Source: Bacteroidaceae bacterium (GTDB lineage: Bacteria > Bacteroidota > Bacteroidia > Bacteroidales > Bacteroidaceae). Taken from it: a stretch of DNA of 35,813 nt. The notes below the pieces were generated by a model that was not told the DNA's origin, did no database searches, and worked only from the letters and a program-made list of their open reading frames with translations. The stretch spans positions 1 through 35,813 of the forward strand of contig JAGCGS010000038.1 of NCBI GenBank assembly GCA_017649485.1, given 5' to 3'. This document shows positions 15,390 to 34,016 of this stretch, piece by piece; within the stretch, counting starts at the first letter, position 1, and every line of letters starts with the position of its first letter. Position numbers and translations under genes: made by a program.

Positions 15390-16862
15390 ATGAGAAACTT
15401 GGTTATTTACAACACACTGAGCAGACAGAAAGAAAGATTCACTCCGCTACATGCCCCTCATGTTGGAATGTATGTTTGCGGACCTACCGTATATGGTGAC
15501 CCACACTTGGGTCACGCTCGTCCTGCCATCACCTTCGACATCCTGTTCCGATACCTCAAGCACATCGGCTATAAAGTGCGCTATGTGAGGAACATTACCG
15601 ATGTGGGACATTTAGAGCATGATGCCGACGAGGGCGAGGACAAGATAGCAAAGAAAGCACGACTGGAACAGTTAGAACCCATGGAAGTGGCACAATTCTA
15701 TATCAACCGCTACCACCAAGCTATGGATGCCTTGAATGTGTTGCCGCCCAGCATTGAGCCTCATGCTTCTGGACACATCATCGAGCAGATAGAACTGGTG
15801 AAGCAGATCCTGGACAACGGTTATGGCTATGTTAGCGATGGCTCTGTTTATTTCGACGTACCTAAATACAACCAAGACCATCATTATGGCAAGCTTTCAG
15901 GCAGAAACCTGACGGATGTCATCAATACATCCCGTGAACTGGACGGACAGGACGAGAAGCACAACCCAGTTGATTTCGCCTTGTGGAAGAAGGCACAACC
16001 TGAGCACATCATGCGTTGGCCTTCACCTTGGAGCGATGGTTTCCCTGGTTGGCATTGCGAGTGCACAGCTATGGGTAAGAAATACTTAGGTTCCCACTTC
16101 GACATCCACGGTGGTGGCATGGATTTGGTGTTCCCTCATCATGAGTGTGAGATAGCACAGAGTGTGGCATCTCAGGGTGACGATATGGTACACTACTGGA
16201 TGCACAACAACATGATTACCATCAACGGACAGAAGATGGGCAAGAGCCTTGGTAACTTCATCACCCTGTTCGAGTTCTTCGATGGTAGCAATAAGAATCT
16301 GGATAAGGCTTATACACCTATGACCATCCGTTTCTTTATCTTGCAAGCCCACTATCGCAGTACAGTGGATTTCAGCAATGATGCTTTGCAAGCTGCCGAG
16401 AAAGGATTAGAGAGAATGATGGATGCCGTTCATGCATTGGATAAGATTCAGCCATCAAATACCACCAGCATGTCTGTCAACGATTTGCGTGAGAAGTGCT
16501 ATGAAGCGATGGACGACGATCTGAATACACCTATCGTCATTGCCCATCTTTTTGATGCCGCCCGCACCATCAACTCATTGGCAGATGGTAAGGCCACTAT
16601 TACCGCAGAAGATTTGACGGCATTGAAAGAGACCTTCCATACCTTCTGCTTCGACATTTTAGGCTTACAAGAGGATCATGCCTCTAATGCTGGACGTGAA
16701 GAAGCTTTCGCTGGGGCAGTAAACTTGTTGTTGGCAGAGCGTCAGGAAGCCAAGGCAAACAAAGACTGGGCTAAGTCCGACCGCATACGAAATGAGTTGG
16801 CCGCCTTGGGCTTTGAAATTAAGGATGGCAAGAATGGTGCAGAGTGGAAATTGAACCGATGA
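15390..16862 (+). CDS. cysS: Cysteinyl-tRNA synthetase
   Basis: A 490-residue class I aminoacyl-tRNA synthetase charging tRNA-Cys. The HIGH motif is HLGH at 39-42 and the KMSKS motif is KMGKS at 282-286. Zinc-site ligands match E. coli: Cys30, Cys225 in WHCECTAMG, His250 and Glu254 in PHHECE. A short insertion ([10 protein letters not shown]) lies after the KMGKS helix. The C-terminus GAEWKLNR resembles the normal end. The stop codon TGA (16860-16862) lies inside the first, imperfect unit of a downstream heptamer array. Confidence 0.96.
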
Positions 16863-16892
16863 CTATTGACTATTGACCATTGACCATTGAGC
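16859..16892 (-). repeat. Heptamer array A (reverse orientation), cysS-DUF2723 gap
   Basis: Units ATGACT, ATTGACT, ATTGACC, ATTGACC, ATTGAGC: the reverse complement of the GTCAATG family. It begins at the cysS stop codon. Because the period is 7, perfect reverse-orientation units put TGA in all three frames within 21 bases. Confidence 0.85.
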
Positions 16893-16935
16893 TTGTGGTT
16901 CCAACAGCTGAATATTAATTTAAGAACATTTTAGG

Positions 16936-19900
16936 ATGAAACAGTATAGATTAATCAATAACATTGTGGGGTGGATAGTTTTCGCCATAGCTGCTATTGT
17001 TTATTGCATGACGATAGAGCCCACAGCCAGTTTCTGGGATTGCCCAGAGTTTATCACCACAGGCTATAAGTTGGAGGTTGGGCATCCCCCTGGCGCACCA
17101 TTCTTCATGCTGGTAGCCAACCTCTTCTCACAGTTTGCCTCCGACACTACCCAAGTGGCAAAGATGGTGAACTATATGAGTGCCCTCATGAGTGCAGGCT
17201 GTATCCTGTTCTTGTTCTGGACCATCACCCACTTAGTACGCAAGTTAGTGATTTCAGAAGAACAATGGAAAATGATGAGTGATTCATCAGCATTGGTTAA
17301 TGATCAACGGTCAACGGTCAACGGTCAACTGATTACCATCATGGGTAGTGGCGTAGTGGGAGCCTTGGTTTATACCTTCAGTGACACCTTCTGGTTCAGT
17401 GCAGTGGAAGGTGAAGTCTATGCCTTCTCCTCTTTGTTCACCGCAGCGGTTTTCTGGTTGATACTGAAGTGGGAGGATGTGGCAGACCAGCCTCACAGCG
17501 ACAGATGGTTGGTTTTGATTGCCTATCTCACAGGCTTGAGCATTGGCGTACACCTATTGAATCTGCTCTGCTTGCCTGCCATCGTGTTGGTATATTATTA
17601 CAAACGCGTTCCAAATGCCACCGCCAAAGGTTCTTTGTTGGCTCTGTTCGCTTCTGCTGTATTGGTAGCTTTGGTGCTTTATGGCATTGTGCCTGGCATC
17701 GTAAAGGTGGGTGGCTGGTTCGAACTCTTGTTTGTCAACGATCTGGGTATGTCGTTCAATACAGGTGTCTTCGTCTATATCCTCGTTGCCTCGGCTACTA
17801 TCATCTGGGGAGTATATGAGAGCTATGTTGGCAAGAGCGAAAACCGCATGATTTGGAGTTTTATCCTCACTGTGGGTTTGTTGGGTATTCCTTTCTACGG
17901 ACACGGCAAAACCTCCGTTATCATAGGCATCATCGTACTGAGCCTGTTGTGGCTTTACCTGCGTCCTGCTACACAACGCAGCTTGAGTCCCAGTTGGAAG
18001 ATTTCAGCACGCGTACTAAACACCACCATGCTGAGCATCATGATGATTGTGATTGGCTATTCGTCTTACGCCTTGATCGTGGTTCGTTCTACCGCCAATA
18101 CGCCTATGGATCAGAACTCTCCTGAGGATATTTTCACTTTAGGAGAATACTTGGGACGCGAGCAATATGGAACACGTCCGTTGTTCTATGGTCCTACTTT
18201 CGCTTCAAAGGTAGCTTTTCAGGAAAAAGACGGCTATTGCGAACCTGTGATAGCCGAGCAACAAATGAAGTGGATACGCAAGGAAAAGAGCAATCCAAAC
18301 GAGTCAGATAGCTACATACAGGAAGAGAGCCGCATAGAATATAAGTATGCACAGAACATGCTGTTCCCCCGCATGTACAGCTCTTCCATGAACCACCCAC
18401 AGCTCTACAAGGCATGGATGAATATCGAGGGTCACGATGTGCCCTACAGCCAATGTGGTGAGGGAGTACAGATGGTGAATATCCCCACCATGTGGGAGAA
18501 CATTCAATTCTTCTTCTCTTACCAGGTGAACTGGATGTATTGGCGTTACTTCATGTGGAACTTCGTAGGTCGCCAGAACGACATACAAGGTAACGGTGAG
18601 CTGGAGCATGGCAATTGGATATCAGGCATTTCTTGGTTTGATAACCTAATGTTGGGCAACCAAAACCTGCTACCAGATGAGTTGAGAGAGAACAAGGGTC
18701 ACAATGTTTATTATGCTTTGCCCCTCATCCTGGGTTTGATAGGCTTGCTTTGGCAGGCATACAAAGGACAGAAGGGCATCAAGCAGTTCTGGGTGGTATT
18801 CTTCCTGTTCTTCATGACTGGCATCGCCATCGTGTTCTACCTCAATCAGACACCAGGTCAGCCTCGTGAGCGTGACTATGCTTATGCCGGCTCGTTCTAT
18901 GCCTTCGCCATCTGGGTAGGTATGGGTGTAGCTGGCTTGATTCACATCATCCACGACCTCTTCTCCAAACCTGAAGATAATGGTCAAAGTTCAATGGCCA
19001 ATGGTCAATCATCAATCGTCAATGGTCAATGGTTAATGCCTCTCATCGTATCATTGGTTTGCTTGCTTGTCCCCATTCAGATGGCGTCACAAACTTGGGA
19101 TGACCACGACCGTAGCGATCGCTATCTGACCCGTGACTTCGGTCAGAACTACCTGATGTCATTGCAGGAAACTGGTAATCCAATCATCTATACCAATGGC
19201 GACAACGATACTTTCCCATTGTGGTACAACCAAGAAACGGAAGGTTTCCGCACAGATGCCCGTACTTGCAACCTGAGTTACCTGCAAACCGACTGGTACA
19301 TTGACCAGATGAAACGTCCTTCATACCTATCTCCTTCTTTGCCAATCACTTGGGACAGAACGGAATATGTAGAAGGCACCAATGAGTATGTCGTGATTCA
19401 ACCAGAATATAAGAAGAGCATCGACGAAATGTATGCATCTGCCCGTAAGGATGCTCTGAACGGCAACACTGAAAGCTTGCTGAACGTGGAACGTGAGTTT
19501 GGCGACAATCCTTACGAACTGAAAAACATCCTGAAATACTGGGTGCGTGGCAAGCACAGCGACCTGCATGTCATTCCTACCGATAGCATTGTACTAAAGA
19601 TTGACAAGGATGCAGTTCGCAGAAGTGGCATGATGATTCCAAGCGATAGCATACCTGACTATATGCACATCTCCCTGAAGGGACAACGAGCACTCTATAA
19701 GAAAGACCTAATGAAGCTGGAAATGCTGGCAGAAACCAACTGGGAACGTCCCATCTACATGGCAGTGAGTGTGGGTAGCGACGAACACATGGGGCTGTCA
19801 GACTACTTCATACTAGAAGGCCTTGCCTATCGCTTCACACCTTTCAACAAAAACGAAACAGGTGTTAGCTTGGATAGCGAGAAGATGTTTGACAACCTGA

Positions 19901-20388
19901 TGCACAAATTCAAGTTTGGCGGACTCGATAAGCCCGGACTCTATATTGATGAGAATGCTTCCCGTATGTGCTATACCCATCGTCGGATGTTCGCCCTGCT
20001 GGTAGAGCAACTCATGAAGGAAGGCAAGCGTGATAAGGCTAAGGAGGCTCTCGACTATGCCGAGAAGATGATTCCTTCCTATAATGTGGCTTGGGACTAT
20101 CAGAATGGAGCGGTGGATATGGCTTCAGCCTATTATGAATTAGGAGAAACCGAAACAGCAGAGCACATGATGAACACAATGGCCGAGAAAGAGATTCAGT
20201 ATATGACTTACTACCTCAGTCTTGACGATTGGCGTCTAAGTATCTCTGCAGGCGAGTTTGAATACCATACTGCCGTGTTGAACCGCATCATCTCCATCAT
20301 GGAGGAATATGAATCACCTCGAGTGGAAGAACTGGACGACACACTGAACGAGCTGTTTAGCATTTACAAACAAAGAATGGGTGAGTGA
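16936..20388 (+). CDS. DUF2723 family multi-pass membrane protein (candidate GT-C O-glycosyltransferase)
   Basis: A 1150-residue integral membrane protein. The DUF2723 signature is near the N-terminus: TASFWDCPEFI followed by GHPPGAPFF within the first 65 residues, in the loop after TM1 where GT-C enzymes keep their catalytic acidic residue. About ten or more hydrophobic helices fill residues 10-380 and 610-720, and the C-terminal part is soluble with TPR-like helices near 1040-1120. The human relative TMEM260 has been reported to be a protein O-mannosyltransferase, so protein O-glycosylation is a reasonable but unproven role here. Two heptamer-repeat stretches are translated in frame in loops: residues about 121-132 and 683-701. 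It is followed directly by a polysaccharide deacetylase gene (stop and start share one base). Confidence 0.85.
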   Translation: MKQYRLINNIVGWIVFAIAAIVYCMTIEPTASFWDCPEFITTGYKLEVGHPPGAPFFMLVANLFSQFASDTTQVAKMVNYMSALMSAGCILFLFWTITHLVRKLVISEEQWKMMSDSSALVNDQRSTVNGQLITIMGSGVVGALVYTFSDTFWFSAVEGEVYAFSSLFTAAVFWLILKWEDVADQPHSDRWLVLIAYLTGLSIGVHLLNLLCLPAIVLVYYYKRVPNATAKGSLLALFASAVLVALVLYGIVPGIVKVGGWFELLFVNDLGMSFNTGVFVYILVASATIIWGVYESYVGKSENRMIWSFILTVGLLGIPFYGHGKTSVIIGIIVLSLLWLYLRPATQRSLSPSWKISARVLNTTMLSIMMIVIGYSSYALIVVRSTANTPMDQNSPEDIFTLGEYLGREQYGTRPLFYGPTFASKVAFQEKDGYCEPVIAEQQMKWIRKEKSNPNESDSYIQEESRIEYKYAQNMLFPRMYSSSMNHPQLYKAWMNIEGHDVPYSQCGEGVQMVNIPTMWENIQFFFSYQVNWMYWRYFMWNFVGRQNDIQGNGELEHGNWISGISWFDNLMLGNQNLLPDELRENKGHNVYYALPLILGLIGLLWQAYKGQKGIKQFWVVFFLFFMTGIAIVFYLNQTPGQPRERDYAYAGSFYAFAIWVGMGVAGLIHIIHDLFSKPEDNGQSSMANGQSSIVNGQWLMPLIVSLVCLLVPIQMASQTWDDHDRSDRYLTRDFGQNYLMSLQETGNPIIYTNGDNDTFPLWYNQETEGFRTDARTCNLSYLQTDWYIDQMKRPSYLSPSLPITWDRTEYVEGTNEYVVIQPEYKKSIDEMYASARKDALNGNTESLLNVEREFGDNPYELKNILKYWVRGKHSDLHVIPTDSIVLKIDKDAVRRSGMMIPSDSIPDYMHISLKGQRALYKKDLMKLEMLAETNWERPIYMAVSVGSDEHMGLSDYFILEGLAYRFTPFNKNETGVSLDSEKMFDNLMHKFKFGGLDKPGLYIDENASRMCYTHRRMFALLVEQLMKEGKRDKAKEALDYAEKMIPSYNVAWDYQNGAVDMASAYYELGETETAEHMMNTMAEKEIQYMTYYLSLDDWRLSISAGEFEYHTAVLNRIISIMEEYESPRVEELDDTLNELFSIYKQRMGE
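17297..17331 (+). repeat. Heptamer array B, inside the DUF2723 gene
   Basis: Units TTAATGA, TCAACGG (three times) and TCAACTG on a strict 7-bp period, translated in frame as part of VNDQRSTVNGQL between two membrane helices. Confidence 0.85.
18983..19038 (+). repeat. Heptamer array C, inside the DUF2723 gene
   Basis: Eight units: GTCAAAG, TTCAATG, GCCAATG, GTCAATC, ATCAATC, GTCAATG, GTCAATG, GTTAATG. They are translated as a 7-residue peptide period (NGQSSMA, NGQSSIV, NGQWLM) in a loop just before a TM helix. Four consecutive units are in the same variant order as in array D. Confidence 0.9.
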
Positions 20389-21140
20389 TGCTGATTGAGC
20401 AACCCAACATATTGCTAAAGAAAATATATCCATCGGCACTTTGGCGGATGAATCCAGAAGAGAAAGCTATCTATTTGACTTTCGATGATGGTCCCATCCC
20501 CGAAGTGACTCCTTGGGTACTCGATAAGCTCGACCAGTTTGGTGCCAAAGCCACCTTCTTTATGGTGGGCGACAATGTTCGCAAGCATCCCGACATCTTC
20601 CGCATGGTGGTAGAACGAGGTCACGGTTTTGGCAACCACACCATGCACCACATCAAGTTCTTCGACCGCAACTCCCTGCGTTATATGGATGATGTAAGGG
20701 AGGCTGACAAGGTTTTCATTGACAATTTACCACATTCACCATTGAACATTGACCATTTACTATTGACCATTGAGCAACCGTCAAAAGGTCAATCATCAAT
20801 CGTCAATGGTCAATCGCCAATGGTCAATGGCCAATCGTCAATCGTCAACGGTCAATGTCGCCTATTCCGCCCTCCGCATGGTTTCATGAACCACTACCAA
20901 TACAAGAAACTGCAGTGGGCAGGCTACAAGATTGTGATGTGGGATCTTGTTACTCGTGACTACAGCAACAAACTCACTCCCCCACAGGTATTGTCAAACG
21001 TACTCCGCTACACCCGCAATGGTAGCATCATCACCTTCCACGACTCCCTAAAGTCCTGGAATGGAGGCAACTTGCAATATGCCCTCTCCCACGCCCTTTG
21101 GTTCCTCAAGGAAGAAGGCTACCAGTTCAAACTCTTGTAA
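20388..21140 (+). CDS. Polysaccharide deacetylase (NodB homology domain, CE4)
   Basis: A 250-residue carbohydrate esterase family 4 protein that would remove N- or O-acetyl groups from a surface or cell-wall polysaccharide. The motifs are intact: TFDDGP with the catalytic Asp and metal Asp, HTMHH with the metal histidines, RPPHG, and the late TFHDS with the catalytic His. No signal peptide is obvious, although the N-terminus is short and hydrophobic. An insertion of about 45 residues (residues 111-157) made of heptamer-derived sequence separates the normal VFIDN region from RLFRPPHG. The start is taken as ATG at 20388, overlapping the DUF2723 stop by one base; the GTG at 20385 one codon earlier is possible. 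It converges on ppdK. Confidence 0.88.
   Translation: MLIEQPNILLKKIYPSALWRMNPEEKAIYLTFDDGPIPEVTPWVLDKLDQFGAKATFFMVGDNVRKHPDIFRMVVERGHGFGNHTMHHIKFFDRNSLRYMDDVREADKVFIDNLPHSPLNIDHLLLTIEQPSKGQSSIVNGQSPMVNGQSSIVNGQCRLFRPPHGFMNHYQYKKLQWAGYKIVMWDLVTRDYSNKLTPPQVLSNVLRYTRNGSIITFHDSLKSWNGGNLQYALSHALWFLKEEGYQFKLL
20718..20857 (+). repeat. Head-to-head heptamer array D, inside the deacetylase gene
   Basis: The left half (20718-20775) has about eight reverse-orientation units of ATTGACC type. The right half (20788-20857) has ten forward units of GTCAATG type on a strict 7-bp period. The whole is open in the gene's frame and encodes a Leu/Pro/Ile-rich stretch, then GQSSIVN/GQSPMVN/GQSSIVN repeats. The two halves are complementary, so the mRNA could form a long hairpin here. 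Confidence 0.92.
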
Positions 21141-21250
21141 TAGATTAAGGCATCCCGAAGAAAGCCCTTTTCTTTAAAACCTCTTTATTGTAATTATTGT
21201 AAGAATGATAGTAACTGTATACATGTATATACTTGCATTTCTGCAAAGCA

Positions 21251-21280
21251 TAAAAAAGGGGGAAGTTTATCACTTCCCCC
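21251..21280 (-). terminator. Rho-independent terminator of ppdK
   Basis: The stem GGGGGAAGT (21258-21266) pairs with ACTTCCCCC (21272-21280) around a 5-base loop. On the minus strand it is followed by TTTTTTA, so it terminates ppdK transcripts. It lies between ppdK and the convergent deacetylase gene. Confidence 0.85.
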
Positions 21281-21306
21281 TAATCTTTACGATGGCTAAA
21301 AGGCTT

Positions 21307-24090: not shown

Positions 24091-24168
24091 AATAAATCAG
24101 CTATAATGTTTAATAAAATTATTGTCAATATCATAGGTACACTTCGTAGAGTACCCCTTATTAGATTG

Positions 24169-24176
24169 CAAAGATA
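24169..24176 (-). promoter_or_regulatory. Candidate -7 element of ppdK
   Basis: The minus strand reads TATCTTTG, a perfect TAnnTTTG match 79 bases before the ppdK start at 24090. No TTTG is found at the -33 spacing. Confidence 0.45.
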
Positions 24177-24237
24177 CTGTCTTTTTTTATATTTTTTGTT
24201 TTTTTATTCAAAAAAGAGGGAGAAAATGGCGTTTTAT

Positions 24238-24268
24238 TTTGTAATGTTGTTTTTTATTCCTAATTTTG
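24238..24268 (+). promoter_or_regulatory. Promoter of the rimP-nusA-infB-cvpA-suf operon
   Basis: A close-to-ideal Bacteroidota promoter: TTTG (24238-24241), a 19-base spacer and TAATTTTG (24261-24268). The start point would be near 24275, giving a leader of about 65 bases before the rimP ATG at 24340. Confidence 0.65.
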
Positions 24269-24288
24269 CAGCCGTTATGATGAAATTG

Positions 24289-24315
24289 AGGAGGGGCTTA
24301 GGGCTCCTTTTTTTA
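24289..24315 (+). terminator. Candidate attenuator hairpin in the rimP leader
   Basis: AGGAG (24289-24293) can pair with CTCCT (24304-24308), followed directly by a run of T. It sits inside the predicted 5' leader of an operon encoding NusA, a termination and antitermination factor, so leader attenuation is plausible. The stem is only five pairs, so this is weak. Confidence 0.3.
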
Positions 24316-24339
24316 TTGTATTAATGTTAGAACGTATTT

Positions 24340-24807
24340 ATGATTAACAAAGAATTTGTTGAGAACATCGCACTGGAATGGCTGAAAGAGAAGGACTACT
24401 TCTTGGTGGATGTAGTAATGGGAGTTGACAAAAAGATTAGCGTGGAGATTGACCATCAAGATGGTGTATGGATTGACGATTGCGCCGAGTTGAGCCGCTT
24501 TATTGAGGAGCGTTTAGGCGAGGAAGGTGCCGACTATGACTTGGAAGTGGGCTCTGCAGGATTGGGACAGCCCTTTAAGATTTTACGCCAGTATGAATGT
24601 CATGTGGGTAAGGATGTGGAGACATTAACCACTGACGGACGCAAGCTGAAGGGTACGCTGAAAGAGGTGGATGCCGACCATATCGTGATTACCGTTCAGG
24701 AGAAGATTAAACCTGAAGGAGCAAAAAGGCCTAAGCTGACGGATGTTGATATCTGTTTGAAGATGGAGGAAATAAAATATACTAAATACTTAATCAGCTT
24801 TAAATAA
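24340..24807 (+). CDS. rimP: Ribosome maturation factor RimP
   Basis: A 155-residue cytoplasmic factor needed for maturation of the 30S subunit. It has the usual two-domain plan: an N-terminal alpha/beta domain ending in DLEVGSAGLGQPFK (the family's conserved S-pG-hyd-P segment appears here as GSAGLGQPF), then an SH3-like C-terminal domain. It precedes nusA by 5 bases, the arrangement conserved in most bacteria. It is the first gene of a long operon running to sufS. Confidence 0.93.
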   Translation: MINKEFVENIALEWLKEKDYFLVDVVMGVDKKISVEIDHQDGVWIDDCAELSRFIEERLGEEGADYDLEVGSAGLGQPFKILRQYECHVGKDVETLTTDGRKLKGTLKEVDADHIVITVQEKIKPEGAKRPKLTDVDICLKMEEIKYTKYLISFK

Positions 24808-24812
24808 AAGTT

Positions 24813-26075
24813 ATGGCTAAAAAAGCAGAAACCGTGAGCATGATTGATACCTTTAAGGAATTCAAAGACTCACAAAGCATTGACCGCACCACGTTGGTGA
24901 GCGTGATGGAAGAGAGTTTCAGAAACGTGATTGCAAAGATTTTCGGCTCGGACGAGAATTATGACGTGATTGTGAACCCTGACAAAGGTGACTTGGAGAT
25001 AAGACGTAACCGCGAAGTGGTGGCAGATGGTGAAGTGACTGACCCCAACATGCAAATATCACTCTCGGAGGCAAGAAAGGTTGACGAGGATTATGAAGTG
25101 GGTGAGGAATACACTGACGAGGTGGATTTCAGCAAGTTTGGAAGACGTGCCATCTTGAACTTGCGTCAGACACTGAGCAGCAAAATCCTGGAGTTGCAGA
25201 AGGATGCCATTTACAACCACTATATTGATAAGGTGGGCACCATCGTGAGCGCTGAGGTGTATCAGATTTGGAAGAGAGAGATGTTGCTCTTGGACGAGGA
25301 TGGCAATGAGCTGTTGTTGCCGAAGCAGGAACAGATTCCTACCGATTACTATCGCAAGGGCGAAACAGCCAGAGCGGTGGTGGCTCGTGTTGAGAACAAG
25401 AATAACAACCCGAAGATTATTCTGAGCCGTACAAGTCCGTTGTTCCTGCAAAGGCTGTTCGAGATTGAGGTGCCTGAAATCAACGATGGCTTGATTACCA
25501 TCCGTAAGATTGCCCGCATACCTGGCGAACGTGCTAAGATTGCCGTTGAGAGCTATGACGACCGTATTGACCCAGTGGGCGCTTGCGTGGGCGTAAAAGG
25601 TAGCCGCATACACGGTATTGTGCGCGAGTTGAGGAATGAGAACATCGATGTGATTAACTACACCGCCAATACGGCTCTGTTCATCCAGCGTGCCCTGAGT
25701 CCTGCACGCGTGAGCAGTGTCAAACTGAACGAAGAGGAGCGCAAGGCTGAGGTTTATCTGAAGCCAGAGGAGGTGAGCCTCGCCATTGGTAAGGGTGGTA
25801 TGAACATCAAGTTGGCTTGTATGCTGACCGACTATACAATTGACGTGTTCCGTGAACTGGATGGCGAAGGCACAGAGGATGAGGATATCTACTTGGATGA
25901 GTTCCGCGATGAGATTGACGGCTGGGTGATCGACGCTTTCAAGTCGATAGGCATTGAAACCGCCAAAACGGCACTGAACGCAACACGCGAGATGATTATC
26001 AAGAAGACCGACCTGGAAGAGGAAACGGTTGACTATGTTTTGGACGTTTTGCGTAAAGAGTTTGAGGACGATTGA
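24813..26075 (+). CDS. nusA: Transcription termination/antitermination factor NusA
   Basis: A 420-residue RNA-polymerase-associated factor. The N-terminal polymerase-binding domain covers about residues 1-130, an S1 domain about 135-200 and two KH domains about 230-345, including VGACVGVKGSRI and AIGKGGMNIKLA, the RNA-binding GxxG loops. A short acidic C-terminus follows, without the two acidic repeats of E. coli NusA, as is normal for shorter NusA forms. It is co-transcribed with rimP; infB follows after 103 bases that contain a heptamer array. Confidence 0.95.
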   Translation: MAKKAETVSMIDTFKEFKDSQSIDRTTLVSVMEESFRNVIAKIFGSDENYDVIVNPDKGDLEIRRNREVVADGEVTDPNMQISLSEARKVDEDYEVGEEYTDEVDFSKFGRRAILNLRQTLSSKILELQKDAIYNHYIDKVGTIVSAEVYQIWKREMLLLDEDGNELLLPKQEQIPTDYYRKGETARAVVARVENKNNNPKIILSRTSPLFLQRLFEIEVPEINDGLITIRKIARIPGERAKIAVESYDDRIDPVGACVGVKGSRIHGIVRELRNENIDVINYTANTALFIQRALSPARVSSVKLNEEERKAEVYLKPEEVSLAIGKGGMNIKLACMLTDYTIDVFRELDGEGTEDEDIYLDEFRDEIDGWVIDAFKSIGIETAKTALNATREMIIKKTDLEEETVDYVLDVLRKEFEDD

Positions 26076-26130
26076 GAATTAAATATTAAACAACCCGATC
26101 ATTGAATCGACCTTGATTATTATCACTTCG

Positions 26131-26165
26131 GGAAATGGTCAACGGTCAATGGTAAATGGTCAATA
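26131..26165 (+). repeat. Heptamer array E, nusA-infB gap
   Basis: Units GGAAATG, GTCAACG, GTCAATG, GTAAATG, GTCAATA on a 7-bp period. It occupies much of the 103-base gap and ends 13 bases before the infB GTG. Confidence 0.85.
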
Positions 26166-26178
26166 AATAATTATTAGA

Positions 26179-29145
26179 GTGGCTGTTAGATTAAATAAAG
26201 TAACAAGAGATTTGAACGTGGGTATCAGTACCGCCGTTGAGTTCCTGAGAAAGAAGGGATTTGAGGTGGAGGAAAACCCGAACGCCAAGATCACCGACGA
26301 GCAGTTCGACTTGCTTCGTCAGGAGTTCAGTACCGACAAGGCACTGAAGGTGAAGTCTGACCAGTTCATTCTCGGCAGAAAGGAAAAAGACAAAGATAAG
26401 GTTAAGAAACCTGCTGTGGCTATAAAGGGTTATGAACCAGAGCCCGAAAAGACTAAGCAGAAATTCAAGCCTCTGGGCAAGATTGACCTTGAAAAGCTGA
26501 ACAAGCCTGCCAAACAGGAAGAGAAAGCAGAGGAAAAGCCTGAACAAGTGAAGCCCCAACCACAGGCTGAACCTGCCAACAAGCCTGTGAACGAACCCGT
26601 AGAAGTACAGGAGCAGAAGCCTGTTACTACTGTTGTTGCCGAGCAACAGAAAACGGAAGTTAAGGAGCAACAGGATGCCAAAAGCGAAAAGAAGGTGGAG
26701 CCAAAGACTCAGCAACCTGCCGAGCAACAAGCTAAGACACAGAAGCCAACCTCTGAAGGAAAGACGGAAACTCCTGCCACAGAAGAGAAAAAGGCAAACG
26801 CTCCTCGTGAAGAAGCTAAAAACGATGGCATCTTCCGCCTGAAGACTGATGTGAAGGTGAGCAAGCTGAATGTGGTGGGACATGTTGACCTCGACCAACT
26901 GAATACTTCTACCCGTCCGAAGAAGAAGACGAAGGAGGAGAGAAAGAAGGAACGCGATGAGCGCGAGAAGCAACGCCTGAGTCAGCGTCGCCAGATGAAA
27001 GAGGATATCATGAAGGAAATCCGTGGCAATGAAGAAACTACGGAAACCGCTGCTCCCAATACGAGCCAAGAGGGAAAGAAGAAACGCAACCGCATTGGCA
27101 AGGAGAAGGTGGACATCAAGAAGGCTGCCCGTGAAAACGACTTCAAGCGTAAACGCGAGGAACAACAAGGAGGCGATCGCAACGATAATAATAAGGGAAA
27201 GAAGGGTAAGGATCGCTATCGCAAGCCTGTGTTCAAACAGGAGGTAAGCGAGGAAGACGTAACGAAGCAGGTAAAGGAAACCTTGGCACGTCTTACCAAC
27301 AAGACTAAGAGCAAGGGTGCCAAGTATCGTAAGGAGAAACGCGAACTGGCTTCTGAGCGTATGCTGGAGCAGGAAAACTTGGAGATGGAAGAGAGCAAGA
27401 TACTGAAGCTCACTGAGTTCGTTACCGCCAATGAGTTGGCTAACATGATGAACGTGCAAGTTACACAGGTCATTGCTACCTGTATGAGCGTGGGCATCAT
27501 GGTGAGCATCAACCAACGTCTGGATGCAGAAACCATCAACTTGGTAGCTGAAGAGTTTGGCTATAAGACTGAATATGTAAGTGCTGAGGTTTCTCAGGCA
27601 GTCGTGGAAGAGGAAGACGATGAGAAAGACCTGGTGCCAAGAGCTCCTATCGTTACCGTGATGGGTCATGTGGATCATGGTAAGACTTCTTTGCTCGACT
27701 ATATCCGCAAGAGTAACGTGATTGCCGGTGAGGCTGGTGGTATCACCCAGCATATCGGTGCTTACAACGTGACGATGGAAGACGGACGAAAGATTACCTT
27801 CCTCGACACTCCTGGTCACGAGGCATTTACCGCTATGCGTGCCCGTGGTGCTAAGGTAACGGATATCGCCATCATCATCGTAGCCGCAGATGATAGCGTG
27901 ATGCCTCAGACGCGTGAGGCCATCAACCACGCTATGGCTGCTGGTGTGCCTATCGTATTTGCTATCAACAAGATTGACAAGCCAGGTGCTAACCCCGATA
28001 AGATTAAGGAAGAACTTGCTGCTATGAACTTCCTCGTAGAGGAATGGGGCGGCAAGTATCAGAGCCAAGACATCAGTGCCAAGAAAGGTATTGGTGTGGA
28101 GGAACTGATGGAGAAAGTTCTTTTAGAGGCAGAATTGCTGGAGCTGAAGGCTAACCCGAACCGCAAGGCTACAGGTTCCATCATCGAGTCATCATTAGAC
28201 AAGGGACGTGGTTATGTGGCTACAGTGTTGGTAAGCAATGGTACATTGAAGATTGGCGACATCGTGCTGGCAGGTTCAAACTTTGGACGTGTGAAAGCAA
28301 TGTTCAACGAGCGCAACCAACGTATCGACAAAGCATTACCTGCTGAGCCAGCCTTGATCTTAGGTTTGAATGGCGCACCTGCCGCTGGCGATAGCTTCCA
28401 CGTGTTTGATACCGATCAGGAAGCCCGTGAGATTGCCAACAAGCGTGAGCAGTTGCAACGTGAGCAAGGTTTGCGTACCCAGAAGATGCTGACCCTCGAC
28501 GAGGTAGGTCGTCGTCTGGCTTTGGGCGATTTCCACGAGCTGAACATCATCGTAAAGGGCGACGTGGATGGCTCAGTGGAGGCATTGAGCGACTCACTGA
28601 TCAAGCTTTCTACCGACAAGATTCAGGTGAATGTGATTCACCAGGGTGTTGGTCAGATTTCAGAGTCCGATGTTTCACTGGCCGCTGCATCCGATGCCAT
28701 CATTGTGGGCTTCCAGGTTCGTCCATCTACCGGTGCTGCCAAGTTGGCTGAGCAGGAAGGTGTTGATATCCGCAAGTATTCTATCATCTACGATGCTATC
28801 GAGGAGGTGAAGGCCGCTATGGAAGGTATGCTCGCTCCAACATTGAAGGAGCAGGTTACCGCTACCATCGAAGTGCGTGAGGTATTCAACATCAGCAAGG
28901 TAGGTATGGTGGCTGGTGCTATGGTGAAGACGGGTAAGGTGAAACGTTCCGACAAGGCTCGTCTGATTCGCGACGGTATCGTCATCTATACAGGTAACAT
29001 CAACGCCTTGAAACGATTCAAGGACGACGTGAAGGAGGTACTTACTAACTTTGAGTGTGGTATCAGCTTGACGAACTGTAACGATATTAAGGTGAATGAT
29101 GTGATTGAAACGTTTGAGGAAATTGAAGTTAAGCAAACACTGTAA
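26179..29145 (+). CDS. infB: Translation initiation factor IF-2
   Basis: A 988-residue GTPase that brings initiator tRNA to the 30S subunit. It starts with GTG at 26179; the following [20 protein letters not shown] is a proper IF-2 N-terminal domain, and no in-frame ATG fits. Residues about 80-330 are low complexity, rich in Lys, Glu, Gln and Pro. A second N-terminal-type domain is at about 412-470. The GTPase core has G1 GHVDHGKT (496-503), DTPGHE and NKID, then the beta-barrel and fMet-tRNA-binding domains. cvpA follows after 2 bases. The biased linker produces a long spurious open frame on the other strand. Confidence 0.96.
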
Positions 29146-29147
29146 TT

Positions 29148-29672
29148 ATGCAGGTAATTGATATTATCATTTTGATTTTGGTGCTGGCTGGAGTTGTGGT
29201 AGGATTCCGTAAGGGCTTTATCAAACAGTTGGCATCGCTGGCAGGCCTCCTGATTGGTCTGCTGGCAGCTAAGGCACTCTATGGTGTGGTGGGTGACAAG
29301 CTGGTAGGAACTATCACCTCTGACACAACCTTCGCCCATATCCTCGCCTTTGTGCTGATTTGGATTGTGGTGCCTATCGTGTTCACATTGGTGGCTTCAT
29401 TACTCACCAAAGCATTGGAGGTCATCTATCTGGGATGGCTCAACCGTTTGCTTGGTGCTGCTTTGGGAGGTGTGAAGTGGTTATTATTCATCAGTCTCGC
29501 TATCTGTGCGATAGAATATATCGACTCAGATAATATGATGATTGAGAAGAAGACCAAGGAGACATCTGCTTTGTATTATCCAATACGGGAATTAGCAGGT
29601 TTGTTCATGCCTGCCGTACAGGATTTTACAAAAGATATCCTCAACACGGAGCATGGAACAAAGGAAATATAA
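29148..29672 (+). CDS. cvpA: CvpA family membrane protein
   Basis: A 174-residue inner-membrane protein of the CvpA/colicin V production family with four predicted TM helices (about residues 4-24, 28-48, 62-85 and 102-122) and the typical [10 protein letters not shown] segment after the first. E. coli CvpA is required for colicin V production and affects envelope stress tolerance; the molecular activity is not established. It sits between infB (2 bases) and sufB (20-base overlap), with no obvious functional link to either. The symbol is by family similarity. Confidence 0.82.
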
Positions 29673-31110
29673 GGATAACGACTATGTGCGTCAAGTAGCG
29701 GAGGAGAAGTACAAATACGGCTTCACCACCGATGTGCATACCGAAGTCATCGACCGTGGCCTCAACGAGGATGTGGTGCGCCTGATTTCCGAAAAGAAAG
29801 GAGAGCCCGAGTGGTTGCTTGTATTTCGCCTGAAAGCCTATCGTCATTGGACGAAGATGACGATGCCCACATGGGCTCATTTGCGCATTCCCGAAATCGA
29901 CTATCAGGCCATCTCTTACTATGCCGACCCCACCAAGAAACGTAAGGATGAGGGAAAGAAGGAGATTGACCCAGAGTTGATGAAGACCTTCGACAAGTTG
30001 GGTATCCCTCTGGAGGAACGTATGGCGCTGAGTGGCTTGGCGGTAGATGCCGTCATGGACTCCGTGTCAGTTAAGACCACCTTCAAGGAGCAGCTCAAAG
30101 AGAAGGGAATCATCTTCTGCTCTATGAGCGAGGCGGTGCAGGAGCATCCCGACTTGGTGCGTCAGTACTTGGGTTCTGTGGTTCCTTATACCGATAATTT
30201 CTATGCTGCCTTAAATTCAGCGGTATTTAGCGACGGATCGTTTGTGTATATCCCCAAGGGCGTAAGATGTCCGATGGAGCTATCTACCTATTTCCGCATC
30301 AATGCCCGAAACACGGGTCAGTTTGAGCGTACGCTCATTGTGGCTGACGACGATGCTTATGTGTCTTACCTCGAAGGGTGTACGGCTCCCATGCGAGACG
30401 AGAACCAGCTGCATGCCGCCATCGTGGAGATTGTGGTGCACGAGCGGGCTGAAGTGAAATACAGTACGGTGCAGAATTGGTACCCTGGCGATGCCGAGGG
30501 AAAAGGTGGCGTTTATAACTTCGTAACAAAACGAGGTCATCTGCGTGGCAACAACAGCAAACTGTCGTGGACACAGGTGGAAACGGGCTCTGCCATCACA
30601 TGGAAATATCCTTCTTGCATCTTGCAGGGAGATAACTCTACGGCTGAGTTCTATAGTGTGGCAGTAACCAACAATTACCAGCAAGCCGATACGGGTACGA
30701 AGATGATTCACTTAGGAAAGAATACCCGAAGCACTATCGTGAGCAAGGGTATCTCTGCCGGCAAGAGCGAGAACTCCTACCGCGGATTGGTGCGTGTGGC
30801 GGCAAAGGCAGAAAATGCCCGCAACTATAGTCAGTGCGACTCTCTACTTCTGGGCGACCAGTGTGGGGCTCACACCTTCCCTTATATGGACATCCACAAC
30901 GAGACAGCGGTGGTGGAACACGAGGCTACTACCAGTAAGATCAACGAGGAGCAGATTTTCTACTGCAACCAACGAGGTATCTCGACAGAAGATGCAGTAG
31001 GTCTGATAGTGAATGGCTATGCCAAGGAGGTACTGAACAAGTTGCCTATGGAGTTTGCCGTAGAGGCGCAAAAGTTGCTCAGCGTCTCTTTAGAAGGTAG
31101 TGTAGGATGA
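29653..31110 (+). CDS. sufB: Fe-S cluster assembly scaffold SufB
   Basis: A 485-residue scaffold subunit of the SufBCD complex, on which Fe-S clusters are built. The conserved C-terminal core is complete: the [17 protein letters not shown] stretch with the Cys used for sulfur transfer or cluster binding, then [10 protein letters not shown] and [13 protein letters not shown], and the family's C-terminal [19 protein letters not shown]. The beta-helix repeats lie in the middle. The ATG at 29653 overlaps the end of cvpA by 20 bases. sufC follows after 21 bases. Length is normal. Confidence 0.95.
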
Positions 31111-31131
31111 TTCATTGAATATATTATTGTA

Positions 31132-31881
31132 ATGTTAGAGATACGTGATTTACATGCCAGTGTGGCTGGCAAAGAAATACTGAAAGGTATCAACCTGCAG
31201 GTGAAGCCAGGAGAGACACATGCCATCATGGGACCCAATGGCTCAGGCAAGAGTACGCTGTCATCCGTATTGGTTGGTAATCCACAATATGAGGTGACAC
31301 AAGGAACCGTCACTTTCAACGGCAAGAATCTGTTGGAACTGTCACCAGAGGATCGCAGTCACGAGGGCTTGTTCCTCAGTTTCCAATATCCTGTGGAGAT
31401 TCCAGGGGTGAGCATGACCAACTTCATGCGCACTGCCATCAATGAGAAACGAAAATACCTCAACCTGCCTGCCCTCAGTGCCAGCGAGTTCCTGAAACTG
31501 ATGCGTGAGAAGCGTGCAGTGGTGCAACTGGACAACAAACTGGCTAACCGTTCAGTAAACGAAGGTTTCTCCGGCGGTGAGAAGAAGCGTAACGAGATTT
31601 TCCAGATGGCTATGCTGGAACCCAAACTGAGCATCCTCGACGAGACCGACTCGGGTCTTGACATCGATGCACTGCGCATCGTGGCAGAAGGAGTAAACAA
31701 ACTCAAGACCCCTGAAACCAGCTATATCGTCATCACCCACTACCAGCGTCTACTCGACTATATCAAGCCCGACATTGTGCATGTACTCTATCAGGGACGC
31801 ATCGTCATGACGGCTGGTCCAGAGTTGGCGTTGGAGCTTGAGAAGCGTGGCTATGATTGGATTAAGGAGATGATTTTCTAA
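31132..31881 (+). CDS. sufC: Fe-S assembly ATPase SufC
   Basis: A 249-residue ABC-type ATPase of the SufBCD complex; cytoplasmic, with no TM segments. Walker A is GPNGSGKST (34-42), the signature is [11 protein letters not shown] and Walker B is [12 protein letters not shown], with the H-loop His in [14 protein letters not shown] hydrolysis drives the shape change that lets SufB and SufD build a cluster. It lies 21 bases from both sufB and sufD. Confidence 0.96.
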
Positions 31882-31902
31882 GATAAAAGAGTAAAATAGG
31901 AT

Positions 31903-32697
31903 ATGGAGATTATTGTCGCTAAAGGGTCTGTGGAGAAGAAGACGCTGCAACTGTCTGAAGGCCAACAGTTGCGCATCAACATTGAGGAGAGAGCCCAGCT
32001 GCAATTACTGTTAGAAGGTGGTTGTGGAGAGGTCACTACCGATGTATTGGTGGGCAAAGGTGCCACACTCGACCTCTGCGACTTAGACCTTAGCCTTGTC
32101 GGAACTACCCGCTCTCATCAGATCCATATCCGTCAAGAGGCAGACAGCCAAGTGTTTGTGCAAAGCGTCAGCTTGGCTTCTGGTAGCACAACCAATACCA
32201 CCAACGTTGATTTGTGCGGCGAAGGAGCAGAGCTCAGCCTTAACGGACTGGTGATTGCTGGCGGGTCGCAACACATTGACAACCACACGCTGGTACAACA
32301 CATGGTGCCCCACACCACAAGTCACCAATTGTTTAAATACGTGTTGAATGAACAGTCAGTGGGCACTTATGCTGGTTTGGTCAAGGTGCTAAGTGGTGCT
32401 CACCACACGGTGTCTGAGCAAACCAACCGTAACCTCTGCACCACCCGTGAGGCACGCATGTTTGCCCAACCTCAGTTGGAAATATACAACGACGATGTGC
32501 GCTGCAACCATGGTTCGAGTACTGGACAGCTTGATGAGAGTGCCCTGTTCTACATGCAGCAACGTGGCATCTCCCTTCCCGAGGCTCGCCTCCTACTCAT
32601 GTCTGCATTTGCAGCCGAGGTGATTGACCAAATACGCATCCCTACCCTGCGTGATCGTCTGCATGAAATGGTTGCAAACAGATTCAGAAACTTTTAA
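31903..32697 (+). CDS. sufD: Fe-S assembly protein SufD, short form
   Basis: A 264-residue SufD-like protein, much shorter than E. coli SufD (about 423 residues). The beta-helix core and the C-terminal helical domain that bind SufB and SufC are present, including the DDVRCNHGSSTGQLDESALFYMQQRG region with the conserved His of NHG. The N-terminal helical domain of roughly 150 residues is absent: the protein starts at MEIIVAKGSVEKKTLQL and only 21 bases separate it from sufC, so no upstream fragment exists. It is likely functional in a minimal SufBCD complex (inference). A heptamer array begins right after its stop. Confidence 0.9.
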   Translation: MEIIVAKGSVEKKTLQLSEGQQLRINIEERAQLQLLLEGGCGEVTTDVLVGKGATLDLCDLDLSLVGTTRSHQIHIRQEADSQVFVQSVSLASGSTTNTTNVDLCGEGAELSLNGLVIAGGSQHIDNHTLVQHMVPHTTSHQLFKYVLNEQSVGTYAGLVKVLSGAHHTVSEQTNRNLCTTREARMFAQPQLEIYNDDVRCNHGSSTGQLDESALFYMQQRGISLPEARLLLMSAFAAEVIDQIRIPTLRDRLHEMVANRFRNF

Positions 32698-32699
32698 TA

Positions 32700-32755
32700 G
32701 TCAATGGTCAATAGTCAATGGTAAATGGTAAATAGTCAATGGTAAATGTTCAATC
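32700..32755 (+). repeat. Heptamer array F, sufD-sufS junction, containing the sufS start codon
   Basis: Eight units: GTCAATG, GTCAATA, GTCAATG, GTAAATG, GTAAATA, GTCAATG, GTAAATG, TTCAATC. It fills the whole gap after the sufD stop. The sufS ATG is the last three bases of the sixth unit (32739-32741), and the first codons of sufS come from units seven and eight. Confidence 0.92.
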
Positions 32756-34016
32756 AATAAGGCAAGACTTTCCCATATTACAGACGGAAGTATATGGTCA
32801 TCCCCTCGTCTATCTTGACAATGGGGCAACCACCCAGAAGCCACGTCAGGTGGTAGAGGCGATGGTGAATCAGTATTATCACACCAATGCCAATGTACAT
32901 CGTGGCGTGCATCATCTTTCGGTTGTTGCCACTGATATGTTAGAGCAGAGCCGCGAAACAGTGAGGAAATTTATCCATGCTGCTTCTGTTGATGAGATCG
33001 TTTTTACCCGTGGCACCACCGAGGCCATCAACCTGGTAGCATCATCTTTCTGTCAGCAGGAGATGCAGGCAGGCGATGAGGTGATTGTCAGCGCTATGGA
33101 GCATCATAGCAACATCGTTCCCTGGCAATTGCAGGCAGAGCGTAAAGGCATAATCGTAAAGGTTATCCCCATCACAGATGAGGGGATCTTGCTGGTGGAT
33201 GAATACGAAAAACTGTTTACCCCTAAAACCAAGATAGTGAGTGTGGCTCATGTCAGCAATGTTTTGGGCACCATCAACCCTGTGGCCGATATCATCCGCA
33301 TAGCCCACGATCATGGAGTTCCTGTACTCATTGACGGAGCCCAGAGTGTGCCCCACATGCCTGTAGATGTGCAGGCTCTCGATGCCGATTTTTATTGCTT
33401 TTCAGGTCACAAGGTCTATGGCCCTACCGGCATCGGCGTATTATATGGCAAGCGCGAGTGGCTCGACCGGTTGCCTCCCTATCAGGGTGGTGGTGAGATG
33501 ATTGGCACCGTCAGCTTCGAGCACACCACTTTCAACCAACTGCCATACAAGTTTGAGGCTGGCACCCCAAACTATGTAGGTGCCACAGGTCTTGCAGCAG
33601 CGTTGGAGTATGTCAGCAATATAGGCATGCAAGCAATCGCCGCTTACGAAGCCGAATTAACGCAATATGCCCTGCGGCAGATGATACAGATACCAGGTAT
33701 GAAAATCTTCGGTCCCCTTGTCAATCCTCAATCGTCAATCGTCAATTGTCAATTGTCGCAGCAAGATGGGAGCGAAGTTCAATGTTCTCGTGGTAGTGTC
33801 ATCTCCTTCTTAGTGGGCAATATCCACCATTTAGACATGGGTACCCTACTCGACCGCTTGGGCATAGCAGTCCGCACAGGTCACCATTGCGCCGAGCCGT
33901 TGATGCACCGCTTAGGCATAGAAGGCACCCTCCGTGCTTCCTTTGCCCTTTACAACACCCTTGAAGAGGTGGATGCCCTCGTGGCTGGCATCAAGCGTGT
34001 GGCAAGTATGTTCTAA
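32739..34016 (+). CDS. sufS: Cysteine desulfurase SufS
   Basis: A 425-residue PLP enzyme supplying sulfur from cysteine to the Suf system. PLP lysine Lys225 is in FSGHKVYGPTG, and the persulfide-bearing catalytic Cys384 is in RTGHHCAEPLMHR. E. coli SufS has its Cys at 364, and the 20-residue difference corresponds to an insertion at about residues 327-350, the first half of which is translated heptamer repeat (VNPQSSIVNCQLS). The start at 32739 is the only in-frame ATG in the upstream array that is not blocked by a stop, and MVNVQSIRQDFPIL aligns with the normal SufS N-terminus. No sufE or sufA gene is in the window. Confidence 0.94.
   Translation: MVNVQSIRQDFPILQTEVYGHPLVYLDNGATTQKPRQVVEAMVNQYYHTNANVHRGVHHLSVVATDMLEQSRETVRKFIHAASVDEIVFTRGTTEAINLVASSFCQQEMQAGDEVIVSAMEHHSNIVPWQLQAERKGIIVKVIPITDEGILLVDEYEKLFTPKTKIVSVAHVSNVLGTINPVADIIRIAHDHGVPVLIDGAQSVPHMPVDVQALDADFYCFSGHKVYGPTGIGVLYGKREWLDRLPPYQGGGEMIGTVSFEHTTFNQLPYKFEAGTPNYVGATGLAAALEYVSNIGMQAIAAYEAELTQYALRQMIQIPGMKIFGPLVNPQSSIVNCQLSQQDGSEVQCSRGSVISFLVGNIHHLDMGTLLDRLGIAVRTGHHCAEPLMHRLGIEGTLRASFALYNTLEEVDALVAGIKRVASMF
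33721..33755 (+). repeat. Heptamer array G, inside sufS
   Basis: Five units on a strict 7-bp period: TCAATCC, TCAATCG, TCAATCG, TCAATTG, TCAATTG. They are translated in frame in a surface-loop position between the PLP lysine and the catalytic cysteine. Confidence 0.9.

Follow-up and report, generated by a model that had tools for sequence, protein, structure and literature searches.

What allows a tandem repeat with a seven-base unit to accumulate both between and inside the genes of a bacterium? The question is raised by a 35,813-nt stretch of a Bacteroidaceae genome (contig JAGCGS010000038.1, hereafter the window), which carries dispersed arrays of a heptamer of the GTCAATG type. We find that these arrays belong to a family with the unit KTCAATN, which is abundant in two species of the same genus and obeys a strand rule: within genes the strand that is free of stop codons is sense, while at gene ends it is the stop-bearing strand. 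On balance we think it probable that they represent a lineage-specific heptamer satellite, with the core TCAAT, that has proliferated and been sorted by translation, with lock-in at stop codons.

Tandem Repeats Finder (TRF) reports eight period-7 arrays at seven sites in the window, one of these sites being an inverted pair, and no period-7 row upstream of 16860 (Table 1). The original prediction, made from the sequence alone, described a real dispersed family with a strict 7-bp period, absent from the first 16.8 kb, with three sites intergenic and four translated. All of this is borne out: TRF rows are present at every one of the seven sites, and the gene map places three of them in intergenic regions or at gene junctions and four within genes. 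The predicted number, seven arrays, is correct for sites; the supposed single array at 20718 resolves into two arrays of opposite orientation, and the array at 17304 is a variant, TCAACGG x3.7. A caller built for the GTCAAT family recovers seven of the eight arrays, missing this variant, and its count is zero when the window is shuffled 30 times with a second-order Markov model.

The genome from which the window derives (G000; 2.6 Mb in 69 contigs, 82.6% complete) was compared with that of a congeneric second species (G013; 89% complete) and with the goat-reticulum metagenome-assembled genome RGIG3355 (G161, the source of locus L044, which appears to be the same as G029 from its identical match positions); the three are roughly equidistant, at 79.5-81.1% over aligned DNA. 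Our samples of 409 kb and 760 kb from G000 are stretches picked near matches, and those from G013 and G161 amount to 619 kb and 423 kb. Orthologues of the window's TMEM260-like gene occur in Bacteroides, with that in L044 the most similar at 88% identity. With Bacteroides as the source of the best named orthologues, the host is a gut Bacteroides, represented by a metagenome-assembled genome, and not of the Prevotella type that had been supposed.

In the 760-kb sample of G000 a single family, KTCAATN, accounts for 113 array calls. The exact three-unit pattern GTCAATNGTCAATNGTCAAT matches G000 57+96 times, and 192+216 times with one mismatch (overlapping matches within an array are each counted), against 0 and 0 for a reversed-pattern control (TAACTGN x3). 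With the shuffles of the window, this establishes that the arrays are commoner than chance, and the 266 exact matches (130+136) in G013 show that they are not an artefact of one assembly. These two genomes have the highest exact counts in the genus (153 in G000), followed by G047 with 30 and G006 with 24. At least one exact match is present in 34 of the 149 genomes of the genus, in 13 of the 49 genomes behind the named loci (50 of 80 loci) and, phylum-wide, in 15 of 296; G161, the nearest named relative, has four arrays in its 423 kb. The reversed control corresponds to the published TAACTGA family, and is therefore not a neutral control across the phylum; TAACTGN has 25 to 42 matches in each of the other Bacteroidota genomes G324 (37+5), G481, G424 and G226.

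Across 66 array calls in the 409-kb sample the TCAAT core is near-fixed, a count that leans on the caller's own core, while base 1 is mostly G or T and base 7 is free. The two variable bases agree more within arrays (identity 0.36) than after units have been exchanged at random between arrays (0.23). Beyond the arrays, solitary heptamers are about as frequent as chance predicts (observed and expected: GTCAATG 112 and 114, GTCAATC 98 and 84, GTCAATT 36 and 44). Counted leniently, runs of two or more units become gradually scarcer with length (53, 17, 14, 11, 12 and 6), so that growth by slippage is possible; a Markov copy gives 24 doublets and nothing longer. For four scrambled cores the 409-kb sample contains not even a pair of exact cores in tandem; with one mismatch allowed, the scrambled core GATCAT reaches three or more units in 18 runs. 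The array counts are slightly high, since a few arrays are nearly palindromic and were called once per strand (L115 937/954, L151 19701/19718).

The distribution of the arrays follows the arithmetic of the unit. When a 7-bp unit is repeated, one set of seven codons is read in every frame. In GTCAATN none of these is a stop, and its complement, NATTGAC, presents TGA in each frame within 21 bp; whichever the frame, a sense array is thus a linker and an antisense array a stop. Among the 66 arrays of the 409-kb sample, those within genes comprise 12 with the GTCAAT strand sense and three antisense, one of the latter being a second call of a sense array, and none of the 66 lies between divergent genes. 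Antisense arrays bordering the 3' end of a gene are 37 in number, of which 31 sit between -20 and +5 relative to the stop; if arrays were spread evenly over the free room of each region, 6.1 would be expected within 0..5 of it. The commonest distances between array and stop (-4, -11 and -18) place the stop inside the first, second or third unit, and the stop next to these 37 arrays is TGA in 35 cases, compared with 118 of 324 for all genes. In most cases the TGA that ends the gene comes from the array itself.

The same rule holds in the larger G000 sample (760 kb) and in the second species (619 kb), where the test took arrays of any period-7 unit. The stop-free strand is sense in 24 coding arrays and antisense in three in G000, and in 15 and one in G013. 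At stop codons the stop-bearing strand is sense in 47 arrays against six in G000 and in 23 against six in G013; further downstream (6-60 bp) the figures are 11 against 15 and two against eight. Divergent intergenic regions rarely contain an array: one of 73 in G000 against 69 of 388 other regions (Fisher 5.5e-5), and one of 71 in G013 against 32 of 333 (p = 0.017). Array placement is therefore not random, as judged by both orientation and the avoidance of divergent regions. The opposite orientations within genes and at gene ends would be predicted by a filter acting at translation and not by a transcription-oriented mechanism.

The genes of the window illustrate both outcomes. Array 1 has the ATTGAC strand in the mRNA and includes the TGA stop of cysS at 16862, while the L044 orthologue ends in TAA and has no array there. 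Within genes, the region of array 2 adds about 13-15 amino acids relative to L044 and array 3 adds nine, and array 4b fills a position where the L044 homologue has a 24-amino-acid gap, in each case with the frame unbroken; array 4a, which is antisense, consists of degenerate units without an in-frame stop. This inverted pair (20733-20856) is predicted to form a strong RNA hairpin (z = -6.74). Array 6 supplies sufS with its ATG start codon and the beginning of its protein sequence (MVNVQSIRQDFPIL, as against MYDIQQIRTDFPIL in L037). More broadly, 25 genes ending in arrays give 31 gene-orthologue pairs, 30 of which agree within six amino acids at the end, as do 364 of 382 controls. The two species have 40 coding array calls (two of these arrays were called on both strands), and a homologue was available in the samples for 31 of them and lacking for nine. 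Homology resumes in frame on both sides of the array in 22 of the 31; of the other nine, some lie near gene ends or adjoin a further insert, and the rest have a homologue that is weak or shorter.

We propose that the arrays grow by 7-bp tandem duplication and that selection removes insertions disrupting genes or promoters. At a gene end, an antisense array would supply a stop in all three frames, the native stop would become dispensable, and the array would then be hard to lose, a neutral lock-in; a sense array would persist as an in-frame linker. Under this model the arrays could persist without serving any function. A hairpin element, E1, may help them to reach new sites, a suggestion that draws on an association, copies of E1 being set between heptamers at a constant register.

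Several observations weigh against this proposal. Random insertion and purging alone do not explain why arrays abut stops when they could lie anywhere in the 3' region, and lock-in is an added assumption; a function at the 3' end is compatible with the data. That a gene ends where it enters an antisense array is true by definition, and it is the position of the array and the kept protein length that are informative. Replacement of one stop by another is not above background, with TGA in 13 of 24 array-free orthologues and in 58 of 116 controls (pairs with their own TGA). Not every single unit is at chance, the hexamer GTCAAT occurring 314 times outside arrays where 254 are expected. Genes were called by a home-made codon-usage caller with uncertain start sites, and starts placed in sense arrays are probably often artefacts. 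The rule is also absent from loci L052-L110, with 74 arrays of other units (divergent regions 6/82, others 38/536; coding arrays seven stop-free against nine), and G161 has only four arrays at gene ends, two in each orientation. Arrays of any unit number eight in G161 and seven in the other named Bacteroides loci, too few for the rule.

The strongest of the other explanations concerns the origin of the period, and it is compatible with the satellite proposal, the two overlapping in part. E1 is a dispersed element of about 70 bp that stands beside some arrays; it has at least 32 BLAST matches in G000 among the best 40 of 93 candidates, several of them partial, and the samples hold 27 copies in G000, 15 in G013 and nine in G161, with no match in the window. 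An alignment of 39 copies shows compensatory changes in 12 of 19 predicted pairs, and in a 21-pair structure 69 cells are changed on both sides, against 23.5 when shuffled and at most nine when slid; the number of further pair types is no higher than in shuffles, 171 of 500 of which reach the observed value. A single copy folded as DNA does no better than shuffles (z -0.61), and only the alignment revealed the structure. At gathering scores, Rfam models matched nothing but a tRNA in six loci, at least five of them with E1, and the surroundings of one E1 pair gave no match even with E allowed to rise to 1. No E1-like element was found among the matches listed in the literature on REP/RAYT (repetitive extragenic palindromes and REP-associated tyrosine transposases), heptamers and miniature elements, where the E1 sequence itself was not searched, and E1 is apparently an undescribed hairpin element. 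One copy, in L115, is apparently translated in frame inside the gene at 262-1890. Its variant E2 differs in its ends and, in L118 and L121, lies within a GTTCGGATT palindrome.

If E1 duplicated about 7 bp of its target on insertion and loss of the hairpin left a tandem unit behind, repeated cycles could build arrays, and solo arrays would be scars. Such a target duplication would explain the 7-bp period. In the G000 sample 25 of 27 copies have a GTCAAT-type unit on both sides and two on one side, although tandem copies share flanks and are not independent; in G013, 7 of 15 copies are so flanked on both sides and six on neither, and in G161 the corresponding numbers are 4 of 9 and three. Some of the G013 copies that lack such flanks sit in AATGAAN units, a second heptamer family that in L155, L157, L158 and L163 of this genome is also found at gene ends and has its own E1 end type. 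In the copies examined the flanks are direct heptamer-like repeats that differ by genome (for example AATTGAG, AATGGAG and CAACTAT). For 67 copies in nine genomes, the higher-scoring of 103 matches, the right flank agrees at 5.78 of seven positions with the left 7-mer of its own copy and at 5.01 with the left 7-mers of other copies in the same genome (Wilcoxon 5e-7). The difference persists in the 24 copies outside G000, G013 and G161 (5.58 and 4.60, p 0.002) and with heptamers of other sequence. Insertion of E1 into pre-existing arrays fits the flank data equally.

The distribution of E1 is similarly two-sided. Within the genus, 70 of 149 genomes have matches to the E1 model, and in 13 the count reaches nine or more (lower bounds from the best ~31 candidates per genome). 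GTCAATN arrays are present in 12 of these 13 against 22 of the other 136 (Fisher 3.8e-8), a comparison that ignores phylogeny and uses a cut chosen after the counts were seen. G047, by contrast, has 30 array matches and two E1, and only a minority of arrays adjoin an E1 (25 of 113 in G000, 7 of 50 in G013, 1 of 4 in G161). In favor of the scar model, an E1 of one genome is aligned at five sites with an array lacking E1 in another; 11 of the 16 E1 sites with an aligned orthologous site are called with neither array nor E1, at least one of which (L149 in G161) has sub-threshold AACGGTC units, and these empty sites, at ~80% identity, are too diverged for a target-site duplication to be read. We regard generation of the arrays by E1 as a tentative possibility. 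A combined reading, in which cycles of E1 write the arrays and antisense copies become obligatory stops and sense copies linkers, so that a mobile element rewrites gene ends and loops genome-wide, is a little less likely again.

A candidate driver for E1 was rejected. The RAYT of G000 has GTTCGGATTACAAATCCGAAC palindromes and a heptamer array in its flanks, roughly 740 bp of which hold these palindromes, another family, and no E1; no Y1_Tnp match was found in G013 or G161. First units with CTC had also suggested E1-derived array ends, and edge decay was judged by eye to fit equally well.

A further tentative possibility, slightly weaker than E1, is that the arrays are functional 3'-end elements, serving as an all-frame fail-safe stop, a spacer before a terminator, an mRNA stabilizer or an aid to termination. 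Such a role would fit the exact position of arrays at stop codons and their scarcity in divergent regions, and inward-facing array pairs occur in convergent regions, one of them (L112 3418/3553) with a separate terminator-like hairpin, seen by eye, between the two arrays. Against it stand the arrays inside genes in the opposite orientation, the scarcity of arrays in G161 and the turnover between species: of 24 G000 arrays with an aligned G013 site, 12 face an array, two an E1 and ten neither as called.

It is improbable that the arrays are binding sites for a translational regulator near start codons, as has been proposed for the TAACTGA repeats. The 409-kb sample does contain 13 sense arrays between a gene and the next start, but most of the starts predicted downstream of them fall inside the array and may be caller artefacts, the arrays at gene 3' ends (37) are more numerous, and divergent regions, with two starts each, are almost array-free. 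Less probable still is the earlier suggestion that coding arrays act as phase switches, turning genes on or off by gain or loss of a unit. Seven is not a multiple of three, and the unit number of orthologous arrays does differ between species. However, proteins keep their frame and length in most comparisons, every in-gene array of the window leaves its gene open, in-gene orientation behaves as though the open frame were selected, and the longest run of identical units in coding arrays is three in G000 (23 arrays) and four in G013 (17 arrays), so phase switching is not supported; the functions of the genes concerned were looked up for those of the window, namely the TMEM260-like, polysaccharide deacetylase and sufS genes. 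Copying of the unit by a reverse transcriptase from a short RNA template would offer the route that sequence-specific dispersal with a fixed core seems to need, yet it is scarcely credible given that units vary within arrays and that RVT_1 has no match in the array-rich G000 (82.6% complete) or G013 (89%) and three in the array-poor G161.

Table 1. Heptamer arrays and genes of the window, and hairpin and transposase features of related loci.
Feature	Position	Strand	Evidence and context
cysS (cysteinyl-tRNA synthetase)	15390..16862	+	PF01406; ends at array 1
Array 1	16859..16891	-	TRF 16860-16890; caller 16865-16891 minus; at cysS stop codon, before TMEM260-like gene
TMEM260-like gene	16936..20388	+	PF11028; arrays 2 and 3 inside
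Array 2, variant TCAACGG x3.7	17304..17329	+	TRF; in frame within TMEM260-like gene
Array 3 (NGQSSMANGQSSIVNGQWLM)	18979..19038	+	TRF and caller; in frame within TMEM260-like gene
Polysaccharide deacetylase gene	20385..21140	+	PF01522; arrays 4a and 4b inside
Array 4a	20733..20774	-	TRF 20733-20773 and caller; antisense, within polysaccharide deacetylase gene
Array 4b	20788..20856	+	TRF and caller; sense, within polysaccharide deacetylase gene; inverted pair with 4a
nusA	24813..26075	+	PF08529, PF13184; upstream of array 5
Array 5	26134..26164	+	TRF; between nusA and infB
infB	26179..29145	+	PF11987 and others; downstream of array 5
sufD-like gene	31903..32697	+	PF01458; upstream of array 6
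Array 6	32696..32754	+	TRF; sufD stop into sufS start
sufS-like aminotransferase V gene	32739..34016	+	PF00266; array 6 (start) and array 7
Array 7	33720..33757	+	TRF; in frame within sufS
E1	L259:6206-6372, L115:1028-1107 and others		Covarying stems; sometimes in tandem
E2, E1 variant with other ends (AAATCGCGAG..GCGATTTATCTAA)	L156:1248-1325, L154:728-805, L153:5876-5955		Beside heptamers
REP-associated tyrosine transposase (RAYT), G000	L224:1432-1977		NF047646, 102 bits

The name sufS is inferred from the family (PF00266) and the neighboring genes. A 22-bp tandem repeat of 2.7 copies at 47-105 of the window does not belong to the heptamer family. In L052-L110, which are of mixed Bacteroidales origin, seven is the commonest short period, with 94 TRF rows and many different units; 70 rows have period 9, 38 have period 8, and periods 2-6 have 0-7 rows. 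Spread of the arrays by phage was considered and set aside; viral contigs (L171-L214) contain 44 stretches with four exact GTCAATN units, and in L175, L180, L190 and L213 there are two such stretches each, 659 bp apart.

Heptamer repeats have been reported from unrelated bacteria, with differing causes proposed in the accounts consulted. Genome-specific repeats of this kind are already known as the TAACTGA and GGGNATC families; new here are the KTCAATN sequence, the anchoring at stop codons and the link to E1. In two species the frame arithmetic of a 7-mer, with one strand open and the other closed, predicts where arrays survive, and the link to E1 suggests a testable reason for the 7-bp length of the unit. 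There is also a warning for annotation, namely that the stops, starts and loops of ordinary proteins such as those encoded by cysS and sufS can be repeat DNA.

The likeness in kind to the heptamer families of other bacteria, which had been pointed out for the window, extends to their placement. Among the open-access papers searched, none listed combined heptamer repeats with Prevotella, and for heptanucleotide tandem repeats in Bacteroidetes only one was listed (PMC4679880). The TAACTGA direct repeats that it describes occur sporadically across Beggiatoaceae, Cyanobacteria and a few Bacteroidetes; one of their strands has stops in all frames and the other is open, and they overlap stops in one orientation and lie in open reading frames (ORFs) in the other. 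KTCAATN shares this strand logic. It differs in sequence and in location, being found mostly at stops, while TAACTGA repeats are mostly just upstream of start codons (PMC4679880). TAACTGA read backwards is AGTCAAT, probably a coincidence. The GGGNATC-type heptamers of Xanthomonas and Nostoc are likewise genome-specific and dispersed, have one free base and are mostly non-coding; they are under-represented between divergent ORFs, lie near or overlap stops with a strand bias, and are considered by their authors unlikely to serve phase variation (PMC4692102). KTCAATN arrays are similarly rare between divergent ORFs and close to stops. They have no GGG tract, in contrast to these quadruplex formers with G-tracts, in which four units are preferred and 83% of the Xcc repeats are common to Xac, and they carry a stop codon inside the unit, which the sections consulted do not mention for GGGNATC; a tie of those repeats to mobile elements was generally not found by the authors (PMC4692102).

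Long simple sequence repeats with units of 5-11 nt, studied by Mrazek and co-workers, most often have 7-nt units in most such genomes, and polymerase slippage has been proposed for them (cited in PMC4679880). KTCAATN arrays, by comparison, are degenerate and have one core common to many sites, and they lack the long perfect tracts of phase-variable repeats. E1 resembles the REP/RAYT and Rickettsia palindromic elements, the latter often in frame in genes (PMC3733652, PMC10969869), in being a short dispersed palindrome; unlike REP/RAYT it has no transposase tied to it, and it keeps a fixed register with the heptamers. The BrickBuilt miniature inverted-repeat transposable element of Porphyromonas gingivalis, described as always intergenic with a 23-nt unit inside the element (PMC4596501), offers a parallel as a tandem repeat tied to a miniature element in Bacteroidales, whereas the 7-nt arrays reported here lie outside the hairpin and are found within genes as well.

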